From the IMG/VR virus record IMGVR_UViG_3300027770_002599, positions 1 through 64,000 of that record: a DNA stretch of 64,000 nucleotides; one strand, given 5' to 3'. The notes under the pieces are model-generated. The model saw only the letters and a list, made by a program, of their open reading frames with translations. It was not told the origin of the DNA and ran no database searches. Positions 20,151-30,063 of the stretch are shown piece after piece. The number at the start of each line of letters is the position of its first letter. Position 1 is the first letter of the stretch. Origin of the DNA: a virus. The position numbers were made by a program, and so were the translations under genes.

Positions 20151-20567
20151 TTAGGACAATGAAGTTTCAAGAACCCATCCAGTTGTATTATCTCCTTGAT
20201 ATGCTTCTTCGTCCCAACGGTAAAATGAACGTGCTTCTACTTCTGCTTCGGTAAGTTCTGGTGCAGCACCAAGAGGTGATTGCCAATCAGCAGTTTCTTC
20301 TACGAGAACCCAAGAAGCAAATGGTTGTGGGGCAACAAAGGCATCAAGTTCCTCATTATAAGAATAACCAATAACTGCATATCTTACACGAATATTGTTA
20401 TTATAAGAAGTCTGTTTCCAGTTAGTTTCTGCACCTAAAAGGTTTTTACAGAATGCAATACCAATTTCTTCTACTTCTACTCCATTTGAATCGGTACAAT
20501 CATCGTTTGATACTACGATGACTTGAGTTACAATGTTGCTTTCATTTAGTTGTGCGTAGTGAGCCAT
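20151..20567 (-). CDS. Conserved marine-phage structural-region protein
   Basis: This 138-residue protein begins MAHYAQLNESNIVTQVIVVS, an opening I associate with small proteins encoded beside tail-fibre genes in cyanophages. It then carries aromatic-rich text (SYNEELDAFVAPQPFASWVL) and an acidic C-terminal part. The unusual richness in Trp, Glu and Asp compared with neighbouring fibres suggests a soluble chaperone or adaptor rather than a shaft. It lies 64 bases after the glycine-rich gene 20632-22557 with no clear late motif between, so it is likely expressed from the upstream late promoter. Function unknown. Confidence 0.6.
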   Translation of the reverse strand: MAHYAQLNESNIVTQVIVVSNDDCTDSNGVEVEEIGIAFCKNLLGAETNWKQTSYNNNIRVRYAVIGYSYNEELDAFVAPQPFASWVLVEETADWQSPLGAAPELTEAEVEARSFYRWDEEAYQGDNTTGWVLETSLS

Positions 20568-23923: not shown

Positions 23924-24925
23924 TTAGTATTCAATAATGATTGCACCTTGTTGACCATTACTCCCTGTAGGTGCGCCACCTAAACCATACCCAGTTGCTT
24001 GTGGAGCATCTCCAGAAACATAAGCCTGAACTGTAGATACTGCTGCAAATCCACCATAAAGATTTATTTGCCCACCTGAACCTTGTGATATCCCTAATGG
24101 AGAACTATTTCCACGAACTCCTCCTGTCCCTGTTATGGTTACTGTATTATATGTGAAGGTTGTATCTCCACCAACAGCTCCATAATAACCAGAGTCTCCC
24201 AACCCTCCAGCTCCAATAGCATAACTTGCAGTTGTTCCCGAACCTACTATATAATACCTAATAGATGTTCCACCACTTCCTCCTCTAACATAAGTTCCAC
24301 CAGCATTAAAAGAACCACCAGCACCACCACCAGTAGCATAAACTTTTATTAGACTAACTCCAGATGGAACAGTCCAAGAAGTTCCGGATGTAAGTGTAAC
24401 ATATGTGGAAAATCCAATGCTTCCTGATGTTAGAGATAAACTACTCGCACTAACAGTTCCTACAGTAATATTAGGACTTCCAGAAAGTCCATAAGCAGTT
24501 GCTGCTGCTGTTGCGGTTGATGCAATTCCAATTAAATTATATGCAGTAGTTGCAAAAGCAACTGAAGTTGCTGCGCCAGCAATTGTGCTTACACCGAGAA
24601 CATTTAAGTTGCCAGTGATAGTTACATTTCCATTTACGGTTCCACCAGAATTTACATTCAGAGCATCAGCAACACGAAAGTCATCAAATACCTGAAATTC
24701 TATCGGGTCTCCTAATATTGCTGGTGAAAGTAGAGTAACTGTGGAACCATCACGAGCAGTATAATCAAGAGAATCTACCAGTCTTGAACCATTTCTAAAT
24801 ACAGAAATTTGATTGATTCTATAACCACCAGTTACCGTGAAAAGTGTTTGTCCGGCAGTTGCAGTAACACTTATAGTTTTTGATGAAATATTGCCCGTGA
24901 GTGATACGGGATTACCTATTGCCAT
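23924..24925 (-). CDS. Fibre protein fusing shaft cassettes to a glycine-rich domain
   Basis: A 333-residue protein whose first 105 residues read like an N-terminal structural domain (ISVFRNGSRLVDSLDYTARD). It continues through the shared SFATTAYNL/TAYGLSGSPNITVG shaft cassette (about residues 122-158), and from about residue 178 becomes a glycine-rich domain with WTVPSGVSLIKVYATGGGAG and GGAPTGSNGQQGAIIIEY at the end. It is the single-polypeptide equivalent of the two-gene shaft plus glycine-rich couplets on either side. A late promoter (24943-24950) lies just upstream. Its first domain resembles that of 30933-32189 (IGYLDVYLNGARQIEGQDF). Confidence 0.75.
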   Translation of the reverse strand: MAIGNPVSLTGNISSKTISVTATAGQTLFTVTGGYRINQISVFRNGSRLVDSLDYTARDGSTVTLLSPAILGDPIEFQVFDDFRVADALNVNSGGTVNGNVTITGNLNVLGVSTIAGAATSVAFATTAYNLIGIASTATAAATAYGLSGSPNITVGTVSASSLSLTSGSIGFSTYVTLTSGTSWTVPSGVSLIKVYATGGGAGGSFNAGGTYVRGGSGGTSIRYYIVGSGTTASYAIGAGGLGDSGYYGAVGGDTTFTYNTVTITGTGGVRGNSSPLGISQGSGGQINLYGGFAAVSTVQAYVSGDAPQATGYGLGGAPTGSNGQQGAIIIEY

Positions 24926-24942
24926 AGTATTACTTTTTTAGT

Positions 24943-24950
24943 TATTTATG
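24943..24950 (-). promoter_or_regulatory. T4-type late promoter (CATAAATA)
   Basis: CATAAATAA on the minus strand, 18 bases upstream of the ATG at 24925. Confidence 0.7.
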
Positions 24951-24956
24951 GCGATA

Positions 24957-25586
24957 TTATTTCAAAAATTTTCTTAGATTTTGAGTGAATAATGCACCTG
25001 GTTCAGAATGATCATATCTAAAAAGAACATCAAATCCTAATGTAATTCTTGGGATATCATTATTGTGAATAGTTGTCCAGTGAAGATAATAAGGAGGAAA
25101 CAATGTTATCTCACCTTCCTTATTCTCAATTTCAATTATTTCATCTCCATACTTATAATAAGTGGATGTGTTGAAAACACATATTGACATAGTTCCAGAA
25201 ATAAAACTCCAAAGGTCATACTCCTCAGAATGCTTATGCATCCCAATATTTTCTGAAGATCTTATTACATTTAACCAACCACTAACAGCAGGATCTAATT
25301 GATCATTCGTAAAATGTTTTGGTGATAGTATATTGTCAACATAATCCCAATAACATTCTTGTATAAAATTAAATAAGGTTTCTAAATCAGTATTTTCTGC
25401 AGCATAATCAAATATATTATAAGCACAGGAACGAGTTGATACGTGAGTATCATTTAATTTTGTACCAAAATCACTCATATATGGATATCTATTAAGAATT
25501 TCTTCTTCTTTACTTAAAAGAAAGTCTGATAATTTGGATATTTCAATGCGATTTCCTATTGAATAAGTCTTAATAAATTGTTGCAT
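24957..25586 (-). CDS. Putative 2OG-Fe(II) oxygenase (Oxy_5-like)
   Basis: This 209-residue protein has the order SGWLNVIRSSENIGMHKHSE (residues 102-121), SFISGTMSICVF, EGEITLFPPYYLHWT (157-171) and PRITLGFDVLF (179-189). This is the plan of the 2OG-FeII_Oxy_5 family, with metal-ligand candidates H117/H119 and H169 and a 2-oxoglutarate-binding arginine candidate at R180. Members hydroxylate unknown substrates. The gene begins 2 bases after the stop of the glycine-rich gene 25589-26497, so it should be made late, together with that adhesin. The substrate is not known. A proline or asparagine of the neighbouring fibres is a testable idea, not a demonstrated fact. Confidence 0.75.
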   Translation of the reverse strand: MQQFIKTYSIGNRIEISKLSDFLLSKEEEILNRYPYMSDFGTKLNDTHVSTRSCAYNIFDYAAENTDLETLFNFIQECYWDYVDNILSPKHFTNDQLDPAVSGWLNVIRSSENIGMHKHSEEYDLWSFISGTMSICVFNTSTYYKYGDEIIEIENKEGEITLFPPYYLHWTTIHNNDIPRITLGFDVLFRYDHSEPGALFTQNLRKFLK

Positions 25587-25588
25587 TT

Positions 25589-26497
25589 TTATGGAATAGT
25601 AAAGGTCTGATCTGAACCGGTGTAACTAAATCTATACTTAACGTCATCTACAATAATAATACAATATCCTGGATTGCCATTATAATCTCCTACCCCATAA
25701 ACATTACCACCACTAATCCAATCGGGATCTGATTTTGCTTGTGGATGTTGTTCAGATCCCCATGCCGTATTATTGTTATAAACTGTTTCAATTTTTGGAT
25801 GAGAAACATATGAAGATCCACCGCCACCTGCACCAGAAGCACAAGCACCACAGTCTCCATTACCTCCACCTCCACCATAATATCCACCACCCCCGCCAGA
25901 ACCTTTACAACTCATACCATACCCACCATTCATAAAATACCCATCCTGACCAGCAGATCCACCACCACCAAATCCACCAGTTCCGGCACCACCTCCATTG
26001 CTTTGTGATCCACCACCAGAACCTCCGCCTCCAGGAGCTCCTTGAGGACCGCCGCCACCCCCAGCAGAAGTTTCTGTACTATCTGTTGACCCTCCAGATC
26101 CTCCACCAGCAGCAAGTATCATAGATGATTGATCTACTGAAGGAGTATTTAAACCAATATATGATCCACCACCTCCAGAACCTCCACCATCACCACCTCT
26201 GGGAGCACCACCACCATACGTTCTACTATCACCATTAGCTGATCCACCTTGTCCAACCATAATACGAAGAACATTACCAGTTACTAATTCACCATCACGA
26301 AATTTTACATAGACAAATCCGCCACCGGCACCATTATAACCACCATTAAATCCACCACAACCTTGAGATGCTCCTCCACCAGCACCCCATAACTTTATCT
26401 CTACTGTTTTAAAACGCTTAACACCTCTACGTCTTCCAAATCCAAAACCACTTCCGGCAGAACCAGAACCAAACATTCTTGATAAAATAGGACTCAT
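25589..26497 (-). CDS. Glycine-rich adhesin-type tip protein
   Basis: The 302-residue protein begins MSPILSRMFGSGSAGSGFGF, a variant of the N-terminal signature shared with other glycine-rich proteins here. A basic stretch RRRGVKRFKTVEIKLWGAGGG follows. Residues 40-245 are glycine-rich with long GGGG runs and a few Cys (SCKGSGGG, GDCGACASGAGG). The end is a short beta motif (CIIIVDDVKYRFSYTGSDQT). The start overlaps the end of the shaft 26494-27513 by 4 bases (ATGA), typical of translational coupling, and the oxygenase 24957-25586 follows 2 bases later. A receptor-binding role is inferred from the polyglycine pattern. Confidence 0.7.
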   Translation of the reverse strand: MSPILSRMFGSGSAGSGFGFGRRRGVKRFKTVEIKLWGAGGGASQGCGGFNGGYNGAGGGFVYVKFRDGELVTGNVLRIMVGQGGSANGDSRTYGGGAPRGGDGGGSGGGGSYIGLNTPSVDQSSMILAAGGGSGGSTDSTETSAGGGGGPQGAPGGGGSGGGSQSNGGGAGTGGFGGGGSAGQDGYFMNGGYGMSCKGSGGGGGYYGGGGGNGDCGACASGAGGGGSSYVSHPKIETVYNNNTAWGSEQHPQAKSDPDWISGGNVYGVGDYNGNPGYCIIIVDDVKYRFSYTGSDQTFTIP

Positions 26498-27513
26498 CTA
26501 AATCCTCCATTCACAACACCAAGTACATAATAGTTTGCAGTTGTACTTGCACTTCCTATGGTATTGATGCCAGTAAAGTTATAGATATCCATTCCACTTG
26601 TGGTAGTCACACCAGAAGTAGCAGCACTCAAAGAACCACCAGCCCAACGAATAGTTACACTATAACCATTTAATGTAACAGCAGTACAACTTCTTGCGGT
26701 TCCAGTTTGAATTACCATTACTCCAAATGAGATTGAATGATTATCAAAATCAGAACTTGTTGGAATATTTGTGACTGCTAAAGTAATATTACCAGATGGG
26801 TTAGTGCATAATCCAATATTTGATGATGATCCATTATATACAAGACTTGCAGTATTTCCATCTATTCTTGTAAGTTTTTCTGCAACACTTATAAATCTTG
26901 TTTCTGTTGTTGCCCAAGCAACATTAGTTTCAAGTGCTTTCTTGGTATTATTATAAGTTAGTGTCTTATTAGTTGTTCCATAAATCGTGATACCTGAACC
27001 ATCAGCAAGAGTATCAGATGGTGATGTGGTTGAACCAATACCTATATTCTTATCTGCGACTTCCAATGAAGTTGTATTGATAATGGTTTGAGTACCATTC
27101 ACTGTTAAGTTTGTAAATGTTGCAGCAGAACCAGTTACATTTCCTACAGTAATATCCGGACTTCCTGTTAGACCATAAGCAGTTCCTGCTGCTGTTGCGG
27201 TTGATGCGGTTCCCGTTAAACTGCCAGTAACAGTTCCTACAGTTATATTAGGACTTCCCGTTAATCCATAAGCAGTTCCTGCTGCTGTTGCTGTGGATGC
27301 AATTCCAATTAAATTATATGCAGTAGTTGCAAAAGATACTGATGAAATACCAGTTAGATTTGCACCAGAACCATAATAAGAAGTTGCACTTACAACACCA
27401 ACAACATTCAACTTAGATGTTGGGATTGTACTTCCAATGCCTACGTTATTATTGGAATCTACTGTAAGTGCATTTGTATTTGATAATCGTGACAGTTCGC
27501 GGGCGCGTGTCAT
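26494..27513 (-). CDS. Tail-fibre shaft, couplet partner of 25589-26497
   Basis: A 339-residue fibre with GIGSTIPTSKLNVVGVVSAT, then two tandem TAYGLTGSPNITVG cassettes, the NGTQTIINTTSLEVADKNIG cassette and a C-terminal domain (about residues 203-339) homologous to that of 22560-23510. The C-terminal domain differs at many positions (ETRFISVAEKLTRID versus ETRAVTGAEKVYRTS) while the cassettes before it are nearly identical, so the distal part varies more than the shaft. It has its own late promoter (27534-27541) and is coupled to the downstream glycine-rich gene by a 4-base overlap. Confidence 0.75.
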   Translation of the reverse strand: MTRARELSRLSNTNALTVDSNNNVGIGSTIPTSKLNVVGVVSATSYYGSGANLTGISSVSFATTAYNLIGIASTATAAGTAYGLTGSPNITVGTVTGSLTGTASTATAAGTAYGLTGSPDITVGNVTGSAATFTNLTVNGTQTIINTTSLEVADKNIGIGSTTSPSDTLADGSGITIYGTTNKTLTYNNTKKALETNVAWATTETRFISVAEKLTRIDGNTASLVYNGSSSNIGLCTNPSGNITLAVTNIPTSSDFDNHSISFGVMVIQTGTARSCTAVTLNGYSVTIRWAGGSLSAATSGVTTTSGMDIYNFTGINTIGSASTTANYYVLGVVNGGFR

Positions 27514-27532
27514 TATACGTTTTCTATTTTAG

Positions 27533-27703
27533 TTATTTATCAGATACAACAATACCACCGAACTCATAGAGTTCGGCAGTAGCATCTTTTTTTAGGTTAT
27601 AAATTTTACGGTTTTCATATTCAGTTGTCCATTGGTGATTTCCTTCATAAAAAATCACCTCGGTACGATCTTGTATCTGATGTTCTTTCTGAATGTGATA
27701 CAT
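27533..27703 (-). CDS. Small conserved-looking phage protein (56 residues)
   Basis: An ATG at 27703 opens 56 codons ending in TAA (27533-27535). The product begins MYHIQKEHQIQDRTEVIFY and contains WTTEYENRKIYNLKKDATAE and a hydrophobic C-terminal patch (FGGIVVSDK). It is charged and aromatic, unlike the fibres, and reads like the many small accessory proteins of cyanophages. It follows the two oxygenase genes with a 16-base gap that contains a late promoter motif, so it may be expressed both from the oxygenase sigma-70 promoter and late. Function unknown. Confidence 0.65.
   Translation of the reverse strand: MYHIQKEHQIQDRTEVIFYEGNHQWTTEYENRKIYNLKKDATAELYEFGGIVVSDK
27534..27541 (-). promoter_or_regulatory. 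T4-type late promoter (GATAAATA) overlapping a stop codon
   Basis: GATAAATAA on the minus strand, 21 bases upstream of the ATG at 27513. The last TAA is also the stop codon of the 56-residue gene. Confidence 0.7.
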
Positions 27704-27716
27704 AACTTTTTTTAAT

Positions 27717-27724
27717 TATTTATC
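27717..27724 (-). promoter_or_regulatory. T4-type late promoter (GATAAATA) overlapping a stop codon
   Basis: GATAAATAA on the minus strand, 14 bases upstream of the ATG at 27703. Its central TAA (27720-27722) is the stop of the upstream oxygenase gene. Confidence 0.6.
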
Positions 27725-28430
27725 GTGCGGCATCAAATGCACAGTGAGCACGTTCTCCATCGGCAAGAACATAATGAAAGAAGATTTGATGATAATAATC
27801 TTGTACTGGTTTTCTAAAAAGTCTCTTCTTGACTCCACCGGGCATCGGTTCTCTCCAGTGTGGACGTTCACATCCCTTATAAAGCAATCCATCACCGGGT
27901 TCTAGATACAAAGAACGTTCTTCACCGGTAGATGTAATCACTTCCTTCTTCTTATCCAAATAAGTATCAGGAGTTTTGATGATAAATGGCCACCACTCTT
28001 TTAAAGATGTACTGATATGAACACTCACCGAAATCTCACAGGCATCTCTGTCTGCGTGTTTCTTGAGTTCTTGTCCTGAAAAATAAAACCTATCATAATA
28101 ATAAGTATTATAAAGTTTCCGTCCAATTACCTCTTCCAGTTTGAGACGAATACCGGTATGTATCTTCTTATACTGTGGATGAGAATATCGTGCCAGAGAA
28201 CCATTCACTTGTGCTTCTTCTGGATTGTGATGAAATCTATCCACAGAACCAAAATAATTGATTTGCCCCCTTTCTTCTGGAACCGGATGATAAAGTTCCT
28301 TGGAATCCCATAGATTCTTGAGAACAAGATATCCGTTCTTTTCAAAACTCTCATTACGTGTCCATGCAGTTCCCGTATTTCTACGTTCCTGCATCATCAA
28401 TTCTAGTTCGTTATATTCACATTGTGCCAT
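27720..28430 (-). CDS. Putative 2OG-Fe(II) oxygenase
   Basis: I start this gene at the ATG at 28430 (236 residues). A good ribosome site (GAGGTG) lies just upstream, and a longer frame from 28481 would overlap the previous gene by 50 bases. Residues 121-140 read ELKKHADRDACEISVSVHIS, giving the HxD metal motif (H125, D127). LYLEPGDGLLYKGCERPHWRE (about 174-194) gives the third ligand H191, and YYHQIFFHYVLADG follows. This is the double-stranded beta-helix plan of non-haem iron dioxygenases, common in cyanophages. The substrate is unknown. It follows a second oxygenase gene with a 1-base gap, and both lie behind the sigma-70 promoter at 29076-29104. Confidence 0.85.
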   Translation of the reverse strand: MAQCEYNELELMMQERRNTGTAWTRNESFEKNGYLVLKNLWDSKELYHPVPEERGQINYFGSVDRFHHNPEEAQVNGSLARYSHPQYKKIHTGIRLKLEEVIGRKLYNTYYYDRFYFSGQELKKHADRDACEISVSVHISTSLKEWWPFIIKTPDTYLDKKKEVITSTGEERSLYLEPGDGLLYKGCERPHWREPMPGGVKKRLFRKPVQDYYHQIFFHYVLADGERAHCAFDAAR

Positions 28431-28431
28431 A

Positions 28432-29052
28432 TCAGACCCACCTCTTACCAACCGTCCACCCGACAATGCTCTTACGAACACCCTTTGTGACTTTCAGAAC
28501 ACGATGTTGAGTACGTGAATCAAAGAGTACAATCGTTCCACGCTTTCTTGGAGCAAAATAACTATTGCCACCTTCATCAATGAACTGAACGTTGCCACCT
28601 TCATAATCATCAGGACCAGAGAGTTGTAGAGAGAAGGAAAGTTTCCTTACAAGTTCAATATTCTCATTCACAAAATCATTTGCAAGTCCTTCTGCACGAT
28701 TACCAACAGATTGAGGTTTATATTGAGTTGCAAGTCCTGCATCATTGTGCCAACCATAAAACTCACCTTCACCATAACGGGTATATTGAAGACTTTCACC
28801 ATCAATATTCCTCAAATCATACAAGAAGTTCTCACGATTTGCACGTTGAACATAGTGCCACAGAAAACCAGCAACCCAGTGAGTTGTAGGAATCCAAGTG
28901 TTTTGTGAGTTTCTCTTTTCCTTATTCAGGGCATCTCCATGAAGTCTAGAGTCTGCCATCTGTGAGTCAAAATTTTCTGTTAAATCTTTTTCAATAATAT
29001 TTACAATATCTTCTGGAAGATTTGTATAATACCAAACTGACTGTAGAGCCAT
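28432..29052 (-). CDS. Putative prolyl-4-hydroxylase-like 2OG-Fe(II) oxygenase
   Basis: The 206-residue protein contains GWHNDAG (H102, D104), LSFSLQLSGPDDYEGGNVQF (139-158) and GTIVLFDSRTQHRVLKVTKG ending at G191, then R193 and WTVGKRW. These are the iron ligands H102/D104/H183 and the 2-oxoglutarate arginine (R193) of the prolyl-4-hydroxylase / PiuC-type superfamily, at the usual length of about 200 residues. It hydroxylates a substrate using O2 and 2-oxoglutarate. It is the first gene behind a near-consensus sigma-70 promoter with the second oxygenase after it, so these two may be made earlier than the surrounding fibres. The substrate is unknown. Confidence 0.88.
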   Translation of the reverse strand: MALQSVWYYTNLPEDIVNIIEKDLTENFDSQMADSRLHGDALNKEKRNSQNTWIPTTHWVAGFLWHYVQRANRENFLYDLRNIDGESLQYTRYGEGEFYGWHNDAGLATQYKPQSVGNRAEGLANDFVNENIELVRKLSFSLQLSGPDDYEGGNVQFIDEGGNSYFAPRKRGTIVLFDSRTQHRVLKVTKGVRKSIVGWTVGKRWV

Positions 29053-29075: not shown

Positions 29076-29104
29076 ATTTTATCAGATGTTGAGGAGAATG
29101 TCAA
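29076..29104 (-). promoter_or_regulatory. Sigma-70-type promoter for the oxygenase pair
   Basis: The minus strand reads TTGACA (29104-29099), a 17-base spacer and TAAAAT (29081-29076), 24 bases before the ATG at 29052. It is a 6/6 and 5/6 match, unlike the late promoters of the neighbouring fibre genes. Confidence 0.75.
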
Positions 29105-29118
29105 ATAAATTTTTTTAC

Positions 29119-30063
29119 TTATGTCAGATACCTAATTACAATAACTCCATCTTGCCCCATACCAGCACCTCCTCCTCCACAACTGGCACCACCACCACCA
29201 GATCCAGCAGTACTAGGTATTGTTGGATAAGTTGCAGGAGGAGCATCTACTGGTCTCGATGTTCCACTTCCTCCTCCAGATGTATTTAAATTTGTTCCTA
29301 TAGGGTTAGTAAAACTTGATCCACCATTATTTCTAGTTCCACCTCCAGATGGGATACTTGTCATAACACCTGGTCCATTATATCCCCCTCCACCACCGCC
29401 AAATCCACCATTATCTCCCGTTTGTCCTGGACCATTTTGTCCAGATGTTGAACCAGGTACATAGGAACCAGAACCACCTCTCGAACTACCACCTCCTGGA
29501 GATCCACCAGGAGCACCTCCACCTCCACCACCACCGCCGCCACCAGCTACAATATAAAAAATAGACCCTGGACCAGGAGGTTGCGACACTCCAGTAAAAC
29601 CACCGCCTGCGCCACCACCTCCAGAACTCCCATCAGGACCAGCAGCACCAGGATCTCCTCCGCCGTTATTTCTAAACCCAGATCCACTATTATTTGGCCC
29701 GCTCCCGCCGTGGTTTGGACCTGCTTCTCCCCTACCACCAACATATACTGTATAATTTCCAGGAGAGAAAGTAAAAGTTCCTTTTGATATTCCTCCAGAA
29801 GATCCTGATATTCCATCATCTGATGGGAAAAAATCTCCACCACAATCTCCACCACCTCCACCTCCGCCACCACCTATCGCAACAATTTCAACATTATTTT
29901 GTCCTGCGGATACAGTAAAAGTTTCTGAACCTGGTGTTGTAAAAGTATGAATTGTATACGAACCAGAAAAAGTTTTTGTGCCACCAGTCGCAGAAAAAGG
30001 AATAGGACCCTCACCAGCACTCCTACCAAACCCAAACTTCAACCCAGTAAAAAGAGGTGCCAT
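29119..30063 (-). CDS. Glycine-rich adhesin-type tip protein, second of a tandem pair
   Basis: The 314-residue protein opens MAPLFTGLKFGFGRSAGEG, almost identical to the start of the preceding gene (MALLFTGLKFGFGRSAGEG), then diverges. Residues 35-60 are a beta stretch (SYTIHTFTTPGSETFTVSAG), and residues 65-300 are glycine-rich with GPGQTGDNGGFGGGGGGYNG-type text. The end GMGQDGVIVIRYLT matches the closing strand of other glycine-rich domains here. The shared N-terminus with different bodies suggests a common coupling peptide and exchangeable tips. It is followed by 66 bases with the oxygenase promoter. Confidence 0.7.
   Translation of the reverse strand: MAPLFTGLKFGFGRSAGEGPIPFSATGGTKTFSGSYTIHTFTTPGSETFTVSAGQNNVEIVAIGGGGGGGGGDCGGDFFPSDDGISGSSGGISKGTFTFSPGNYTVYVGGRGEAGPNHGGSGPNNSGSGFRNNGGGDPGAAGPDGSSGGGGAGGGFTGVSQPPGPGSIFYIVAGGGGGGGGGGAPGGSPGGGSSRGGSGSYVPGSTSGQNGPGQTGDNGGFGGGGGGYNGPGVMTSIPSGGGTRNNGGSSFTNPIGTNLNTSGGGSGTSRPVDAPPATYPTIPSTAGSGGGGASCGGGGAGMGQDGVIVIRYLT

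Follow-up and report, generated by a model that had tools for sequence, protein, structure and literature searches.

What do the Fe(II)/2-oxoglutarate (2OG) oxygenases encoded among the fibre genes of a marine cyanophage act on? Cyanophage 2OG oxygenases and their abundance are already known, with up to 24 per genome (PMC9602691). They are among the commonest unexplained genes of marine viruses. In the current study, we characterized three such genes, g1, g2, and g3, in positions 1 to 64,000 (the window) of a 107.8-kb IMG/VR virus record (IMGVR_UViG_3300027770_002599). The record is that of an uncultured T4-like cyanophage, a marine cyanobacterial virus, and the part within the window carries T4-like tail, baseplate, and fibre genes. 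Judged by the g3-g2 pair, the closest isolates are the cyanomyoviruses S-SM2 and Bellamy of the family Kyanoviridae. The three products are oxygenase-fold proteins encoded in two genetic units, and the reading we favor, at a probability of about 0.42, is that all three serve the adhesion apparatus by tailoring proteins.

Three oxygenase-fold proteins in the fibre region

The open reading frames (ORFs) of g1 (24957–25586, 209 aa), g2 (27720–28430, 236 aa from its ATG), and g3 (28432–29052, 206 aa) were confirmed at these coordinates, all on the − strand. Domain, PHROG, motif, and fold evidence agree for the three far beyond chance and show each to be a Fe(II)/2OG-oxygenase-fold protein within the adhesin/fibre region, bearing out the family and placement given in a first-pass annotation of this DNA. 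Searches of viral contigs with a single sequence returned one g2 locus and no g1 locus; alignment queries were used instead, and the locus counts for g2 and g3 refer to non-redundant viral loci. Structural comparisons cover the 50 best PDB matches each for the AlphaFold models of g1 and g2.

The g3 product is PKHD/PiuC-like. It passes the curated cut-off of PF13640 (1e-13; 52.4 vs. 27 bits), matches phrog_61 (9e-39), and finds the PKHD-type hydroxylase 3dkq (5e-12), PiuC, and PBCV-1 P4H (5c5t) by sequence in the PDB. Its metal triad (H102xD104 and H183) and an arginine about 10 residues further on (R193) are invariant in nine relatives, which is the HxD...H...R motif in canonical form. The likeness to PKHD-type hydroxylases (PiuC, YbiX) covers the catalytic half and this motif, whereas g3 falls far below the NCBIfam equivalog cut-off of the PKHD-type hydroxylase PiuC/YbiX (49.6 vs. 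143 bits) and stands in a phage pair context.

The g1 product scores 25.9 bits against PF13759 (2OG-FeII_Oxy_5), 1 bit under the cut-off of 27, and matches phrog_81 (3e-16). An HxH (H117, H119), H169, and R180 are kept across 47 sequences. The best match of its AlphaFold model (predicted local distance difference test score, pLDDT, 88.4) is 3bvc, and the 50 best are Fe/2OG oxygenases plus one cupin-type thiol dioxygenase. In fold, sequence, and HxH...H...R pattern, g1 is like the PF13759 proteins 3bvc and 2rg4, to which no function is assigned, and it differs from them by that 1-bit shortfall and by lying 2 bases behind a fibre-tip gene. The first-pass description of an Oxy_5-like protein directly behind a glycine-rich tip gene was therefore correct.

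The g2 product and the name ferrochelatase

By sequence, g2 is a member of the cyanophage family T4-GC 615/phrog_2954 (1e-62), which PHROGs names "ferrochelatase." It matches no curated Pfam family, the best being PF13532 (E 0.06; 14 bits vs. a cut-off of 31.2). Its AlphaFold model, built on 61 viral sequences, has a mean pLDDT of 94.5 and a predicted TM-score (pTM) of 0.91 and adopts the double-stranded beta-helix fold. Its 50 best matches in the PDB are all Fe/2OG oxygenases, including EF-Tu prolyl hydroxylase, AlkB, SnoN, phytanoyl-CoA hydroxylase, and PHD, at moderate TM-scores of about 0.4–0.6. The best of them, the Pseudomonas putida prolyl-4-hydroxylase acting on EF-Tu (4j25, 4iw3), shares the double-stranded beta-helix and HxD...H with g2 at 9–12% identity and a TM-score of about 0.5–0.6; g2 differs in a misplaced 2OG-anchoring arginine and in a signature of its own, HxDRxxCEIS...HWR...H.

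Residues H125, D127, and H191 do not vary across 61 viral, 12 isolate, and 59 cellular relatives, and the full family signature reads R-x-Y...H-x-D-R-x-x-C-E-I-S...H-W-R...H. The HxD...H...R motif that had been reported for both g2 and g3 is thus literally present in g2, with its arginine at +2 instead of +10: a canonical 2OG-anchoring Arg/Lys about 10 residues past the distal histidine is lacking, and the invariant arginines sit elsewhere, at R193 (distal histidine +2) and R114. Because the anchor is off its canonical place, we can only infer that g2 uses 2OG. A profile-profile comparison of g2 with g3, on shallow alignments, detected no homology, and the superfamily membership of g2 therefore rests on fold and motif.

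According to its GenBank and PHROGs names, g2 would instead be a ferrochelatase and the pair would serve iron or heme supply. A 2010 list entered T4-GC 615 as a hypothetical carrying a ferrochelatase domain (PMC3037559), a phage ferrochelatase was said to be always adjacent to a 2OG oxygenase in pelagiphages (PMC9599517), and phrog61 and phrog2954 were reported as enriched in seasonal viruses (PMC11561400), a co-occurrence that speaks for such a pair. However, PF00762, the ferrochelatase domain, has no match in 12 phage genomes and the window's own record, 13 virus records in all; in the control genomes it matches 8 of 14. None of the 12 GC 615 members in our isolate alignment (A1) matches it, and ferrochelatases are absent among the 50 best PDB matches of g2. 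Given the confident oxygenase-fold model, the invariant HxD...H, and the absence of this domain from the phages searched, we reject the identification, which is already contradicted at the level of fold and retains a negligible probability. On the predicted structure, the label "ferrochelatase" for T4-GC 615/phrog_2954 is shown to be wrong. The published claims of a ferrochelatase with a 2OG oxygenase rest on this name, and two oxygenases are the better reading of the reported pairs.

The neighbors of cellular g2 relatives (TPR proteins, other 2OG oxygenases, and diverse genes) point to no clear function. One g2 homologue, 63% identical to that of the window, lies in a binned Anaerolineales bacterium (L279, DBHI01000060.1), probably on a phage contig in the bin.

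Two genetic units

The first-pass annotation had treated the three enzymes as one group. Late motifs and a sigma-70-type promoter separate them into two genetic units, a g3-g2 pair and a late unit of shaft, tip, and g1. The window contains 10 sites of the motif ATAAATAA, which we take to resemble the T4 late promoter. All are on the coding strand and nine lie 13–31 bases upstream of an ORF start; their total is not above chance, and strand and position alone are informative. One site (27533–27540, − strand) precedes the shaft-tip-g1 unit, another (27716–27723, − strand) overlaps the g2 stop codon and precedes a 56-aa ORF (27533–27703), and a third (24942–24949, − strand) lies downstream of g1, before the next fibre gene (23924–24925). 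A terminator-like hairpin of 13 pairs is predicted between the units (27553–27581, − strand), in a region where such matches are as numerous as in shuffles. In the whole window ATAAATA is rarer than expected (15 vs. 31). Nearly every copy lies on the coding strand shortly upstream of a gene, as though stray copies had been removed and late promoters kept.

The late unit begins with a fibre shaft-like gene (26494–27513, − strand), taken from the ORF list and with homologues among the fibre genes of relatives. A glycine-rich tip gene follows (25589–26497, − strand; PF12810, 9e-8, above the cut-off), and g1 is last. Since a late motif precedes the shaft gene, shaft and tip genes overlap by 4 bases, and the gap between tip gene and g1 is 2 bases, g1 is probably expressed late, together with its tip. 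In the closest relative of g1, L096, the order late motif-tip-g1 is kept and the two proteins have diverged similarly (tip 57% and g1 60% identical), which supports the link. The same tip also scores above the Pfam cut-off for ALK_LTK_GRD, which is the glycine-rich domain found in two animal receptors, ALK and LTK.

The g3-g2 pair, which follows another glycine-rich tip gene (29119–30063, − strand; 34% Gly), has a promoter of a different type. The sequence TTGACA-17-TAAAAT (29076–29104, − strand), with TG before the −10 box and 11 of 12 consensus matches, is the best sigma-70-type site in 17–36 kb and ends 23 bases upstream of g3. Sites of this type, scored at 11/12 or better, precede 43 of 59 pairs but none of the 98 fibre genes or the 109 Gly-rich genes; late motifs, conversely, are found upstream of 68% of the fibre genes and 5% of the g3 genes. 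The consensus TTGAC...TATATAAT....tgAAta.ATTata is conserved, including its spacing to the start, and S-SM2 and Bellamy carry 12/12 sites at an unchanged distance from g3. The sigma-70-type site is absent upstream of the pair in P-RSM4, S-CAM8, ACG-2014b, and S-MbCM6, and in Sf-CH11 and L048 a late motif precedes the pair instead. Since the site is of the sigma-70 type, the promoter would be read early. The element tgAAta.ATTata after the −10 box could be an operator; TGAATAYATTA occurs in 21 copies in the viral loci, 20 of them before g3.

In 65 of 67 viral loci g3 adjoins g2, with at most one gene between them, and in S-SCSM2R the two domains are fused in one protein of 427 aa (S-SCSM2R_301, L013:9995-11278). 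The flanks turn over around the pair: where the g2 proteins of two loci are 85% or more identical, 11 of 24 locus pairs have neither flank in common, and at 65–85% identity this holds for 346 of 452. A ~240-aa ORF lies between g3 and g2 in L033 and L069; that of L033 resembles a homing endonuclease of the GIY-YIG/NUMOD3 family, which is also represented in seven island neighbors. The window also encodes a phrog_7759 protein (20151–20567), whose relatives are the commonest gene directly upstream of g3-g2 (19 loci).

This cassette-like behavior amid changing neighbors, together with a promoter of its own, agrees with a second explanation, in which g3-g2 would be a module for early takeover of the host, would have a host protein (a translation factor, a ribosomal protein, or a regulator) or nucleic acid as its hydroxylation target, and would lie in the adhesin region solely because that region readily accepts self-contained cassettes. 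The best structural matches of g2 are to EF-Tu prolyl hydroxylase and AlkB, and relatives of g2 occur among the replication genes of S-P4 and in fibre-less cells, as a takeover module would allow. The strong and repeated placement beside tip genes and the late motif before the Sf-CH11 and L048 pairs argue the other way, and we consider this explanation possible, though unlikely.

Linkage to fibre genes and island neighbors

Linkage was measured in ten reference cyanophage genomes. Of their 102 2OG genes, 38 have a Gly-rich gene no more than 4 kb away, where 10.6 would be expected, and the observed count is reached in 0 of 5000 rotations; the test overstates independence, since these genomes share ancestry. 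Comparison ORFs of similar size lie near a Gly-rich gene in 18 of 269 cases. Among the 59 viral g2 loci with enough flank, a Gly-rich gene is found within three non-2OG genes in 47, and a Gly-rich or fibre gene in 52. Earlier authors proposed that cyanophage 2OG enzymes shift 2-oxoglutarate or other small host metabolites, acting on NtcA nitrogen signalling, or that they serve DNA repair, copies being found beside uvsX and uvsY (Sullivan et al., 2010, PMC3037559; reviewed in PMC2984593). This would leave the tip linkage and the conserved pairing unexplained, and the repair argument concerns other 2OG genes, those adjoining uvsX/uvsY; we regard it as very improbable for g1–g3.

The tip glycine tracts had been called proline- and asparagine-rich, which overstates their composition: they are Gly/Ser-rich, with Pro at most about 9% and Asn 6–7%. 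Collagen and prolyl hydroxylases of Mimivirus and chloroviruses are a case in which virus-encoded 2OG hydroxylases have been proposed to modify a structural protein. PBCV-1 P4H of that system is one of the g3 matches noted above; the window's fibres differ in having no collagen-like G-x-y repeats. Long repeats of this kind are absent from the tip and shaft proteins of the window, where the longest run is 12 residues, and a collagen-type prolyl-4-hydroxylase system was rejected accordingly.

The islands also encode further 2OG oxygenases, sulfotransferases, tryptophan halogenases, a carbamoyltransferase, and GT25. In Syn9, Syn10, P-TIM40, and S-WAM1, halogenase genes stand between tail-fibre/tip genes and a 2OG run; the flavin halogenase islands are L276:8998-12103 (Syn10), L273:8998-12103 (Syn9), L275, and L274. 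The second Syn10 halogenase is VirX1 (PDB 6qgm; 1271 bits over its full length), an iodinating enzyme. Its gene sits in an island of this kind, with tip genes on one side and 2OG genes on the other; in contrast to g1–g3 it is a flavin enzyme, and the window's fibre region has no halogenase. The natural substrate of VirX1 may be a fibre protein.

Some island genes are named "DNA endonuclease" or "DNA endonuclease V" (e.g., L003:8000-8990, L012:7736-8942). Of five compared with PF13640, one passes, two fall just below the cut-off, one is weak, and one has no match. These names look wrong and the genes 2OG-oxygenase-like; a 2010 review reported no denV homologue in cyanophages (PMC2984593).

Such neighbors could also mean that the islands alter the host surface (e.g., lipopolysaccharide or capsule) against adsorption of rival phages, adhesin and receptor-altering genes being kept together. 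Sulfotransferases, a carbamoyltransferase, GT25, and an aminotransferase of the sugar-nucleotide type would suit this, as would the early-type promoter of the pair and the glycosyltransferases, one of the GT25 family, that follow the fused g2-g3 gene of S-SCSM2R. Within the window, however, no glycosyltransferase or sugar gene lies beside the three ORFs, the solved structures closest to g3 and g1 are those of PKHD/PHD-type enzymes, and g1 belongs to a late fibre unit. We therefore hold a surface function to be improbable.

How the enzymes may act on fibres

Under fibre tailoring, host-type RNA polymerase would read g3-g2 ahead of the late genes, and the two enzymes would be present, with host 2OG, O2, and Fe(II), while fibre chains are being synthesized. 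They could then hydroxylate fibre side chains before folding, presumably at a feature that many fibres share and not in one tip. The g1 enzyme would be made together with the tip encoded 2 bases upstream and would act on that tip. In sister phages, halogenases, sulfotransferases, or carbamoyltransferases of the islands could add further groups.

The enrichment of 2OG genes near Gly-rich genes, with 52 of 59 g2 loci near fibre or Gly-rich genes, supports tailoring, as do the folds and motifs of the three products, the tip-g1 order kept in L096, the sharing of islands with other tailoring enzymes, including VirX1 beside the Syn10 tips, and the presence of protein hydroxylases among the nearest solved relatives. 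Modification of fibres is plausible for g1, whose gene is bound to a single tip gene; for the early-type g3-g2 pair the case is weaker. The first-pass proposal that one or more of the oxygenases may modify the glycine tracts or the shafts keeps its statistical link to fibre genes, whereas action of the pair on a single neighboring tip is not favored by its having a promoter of its own and being kept while its fibre neighbors change.

Several observations weigh against fibre tailoring. The pair's promoter is early-type, not late. Early synthesis would be compatible with fibre maturation if hydroxylation precedes folding, but it is equally expected of a takeover enzyme. Fibre neighbors shuffle while g3-g2 stays, and g2 relatives occur outside fibre regions (S-P4, HTVC008M, S-SCSM2R). 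For the pair, then, placement favors a fibre role, whereas the early-type promoter, the shuffling neighbors, and the non-fibre relatives favor a host target or a general role. The structural matches of g2 also take in AlkB and small-molecule oxygenases. For g1, a dedicated search found no independent case of the tip-g1 order beyond L096, and distant relatives are rarely linked to tips (5 of 50 loci); tip linkage as a general trait of the g1 family is unsupported, the close relative L096 alone showing it. Lastly, no enzyme-fibre fusion that could prove a substrate was found among the loci, a 337-aa ORF of L087 being a g2 domain with an extension.

Implications

Our literature search turned up no paper that identifies phrog_2954 as an oxygenase, describes a conserved promoter for g3-g2, or places islands of 2OG and halogenase genes behind fibre tips, although other papers may do so. 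The recognition of phrog_2954 as an oxygenase fold corrects the iron/heme reading in pelagiphages (PMC9599517) and the seasonal "auxiliary gene" signal (PMC11561400). The two-unit layout makes the "unknown target" of these enzymes directly testable, by asking whether the pair is expressed early and g1 late and whether the fibres are modified. In addition, the island position of VirX1 suggests fibre proteins as a place to search for its natural substrate. It is conceivable, if doubtful, that cyanophages use dedicated oxygenases, some produced early and others alongside the tip, to hydroxylate their own fibres, that sister-phage halogenases such as VirX1 halogenate the same fibres, and that both tune host recognition.

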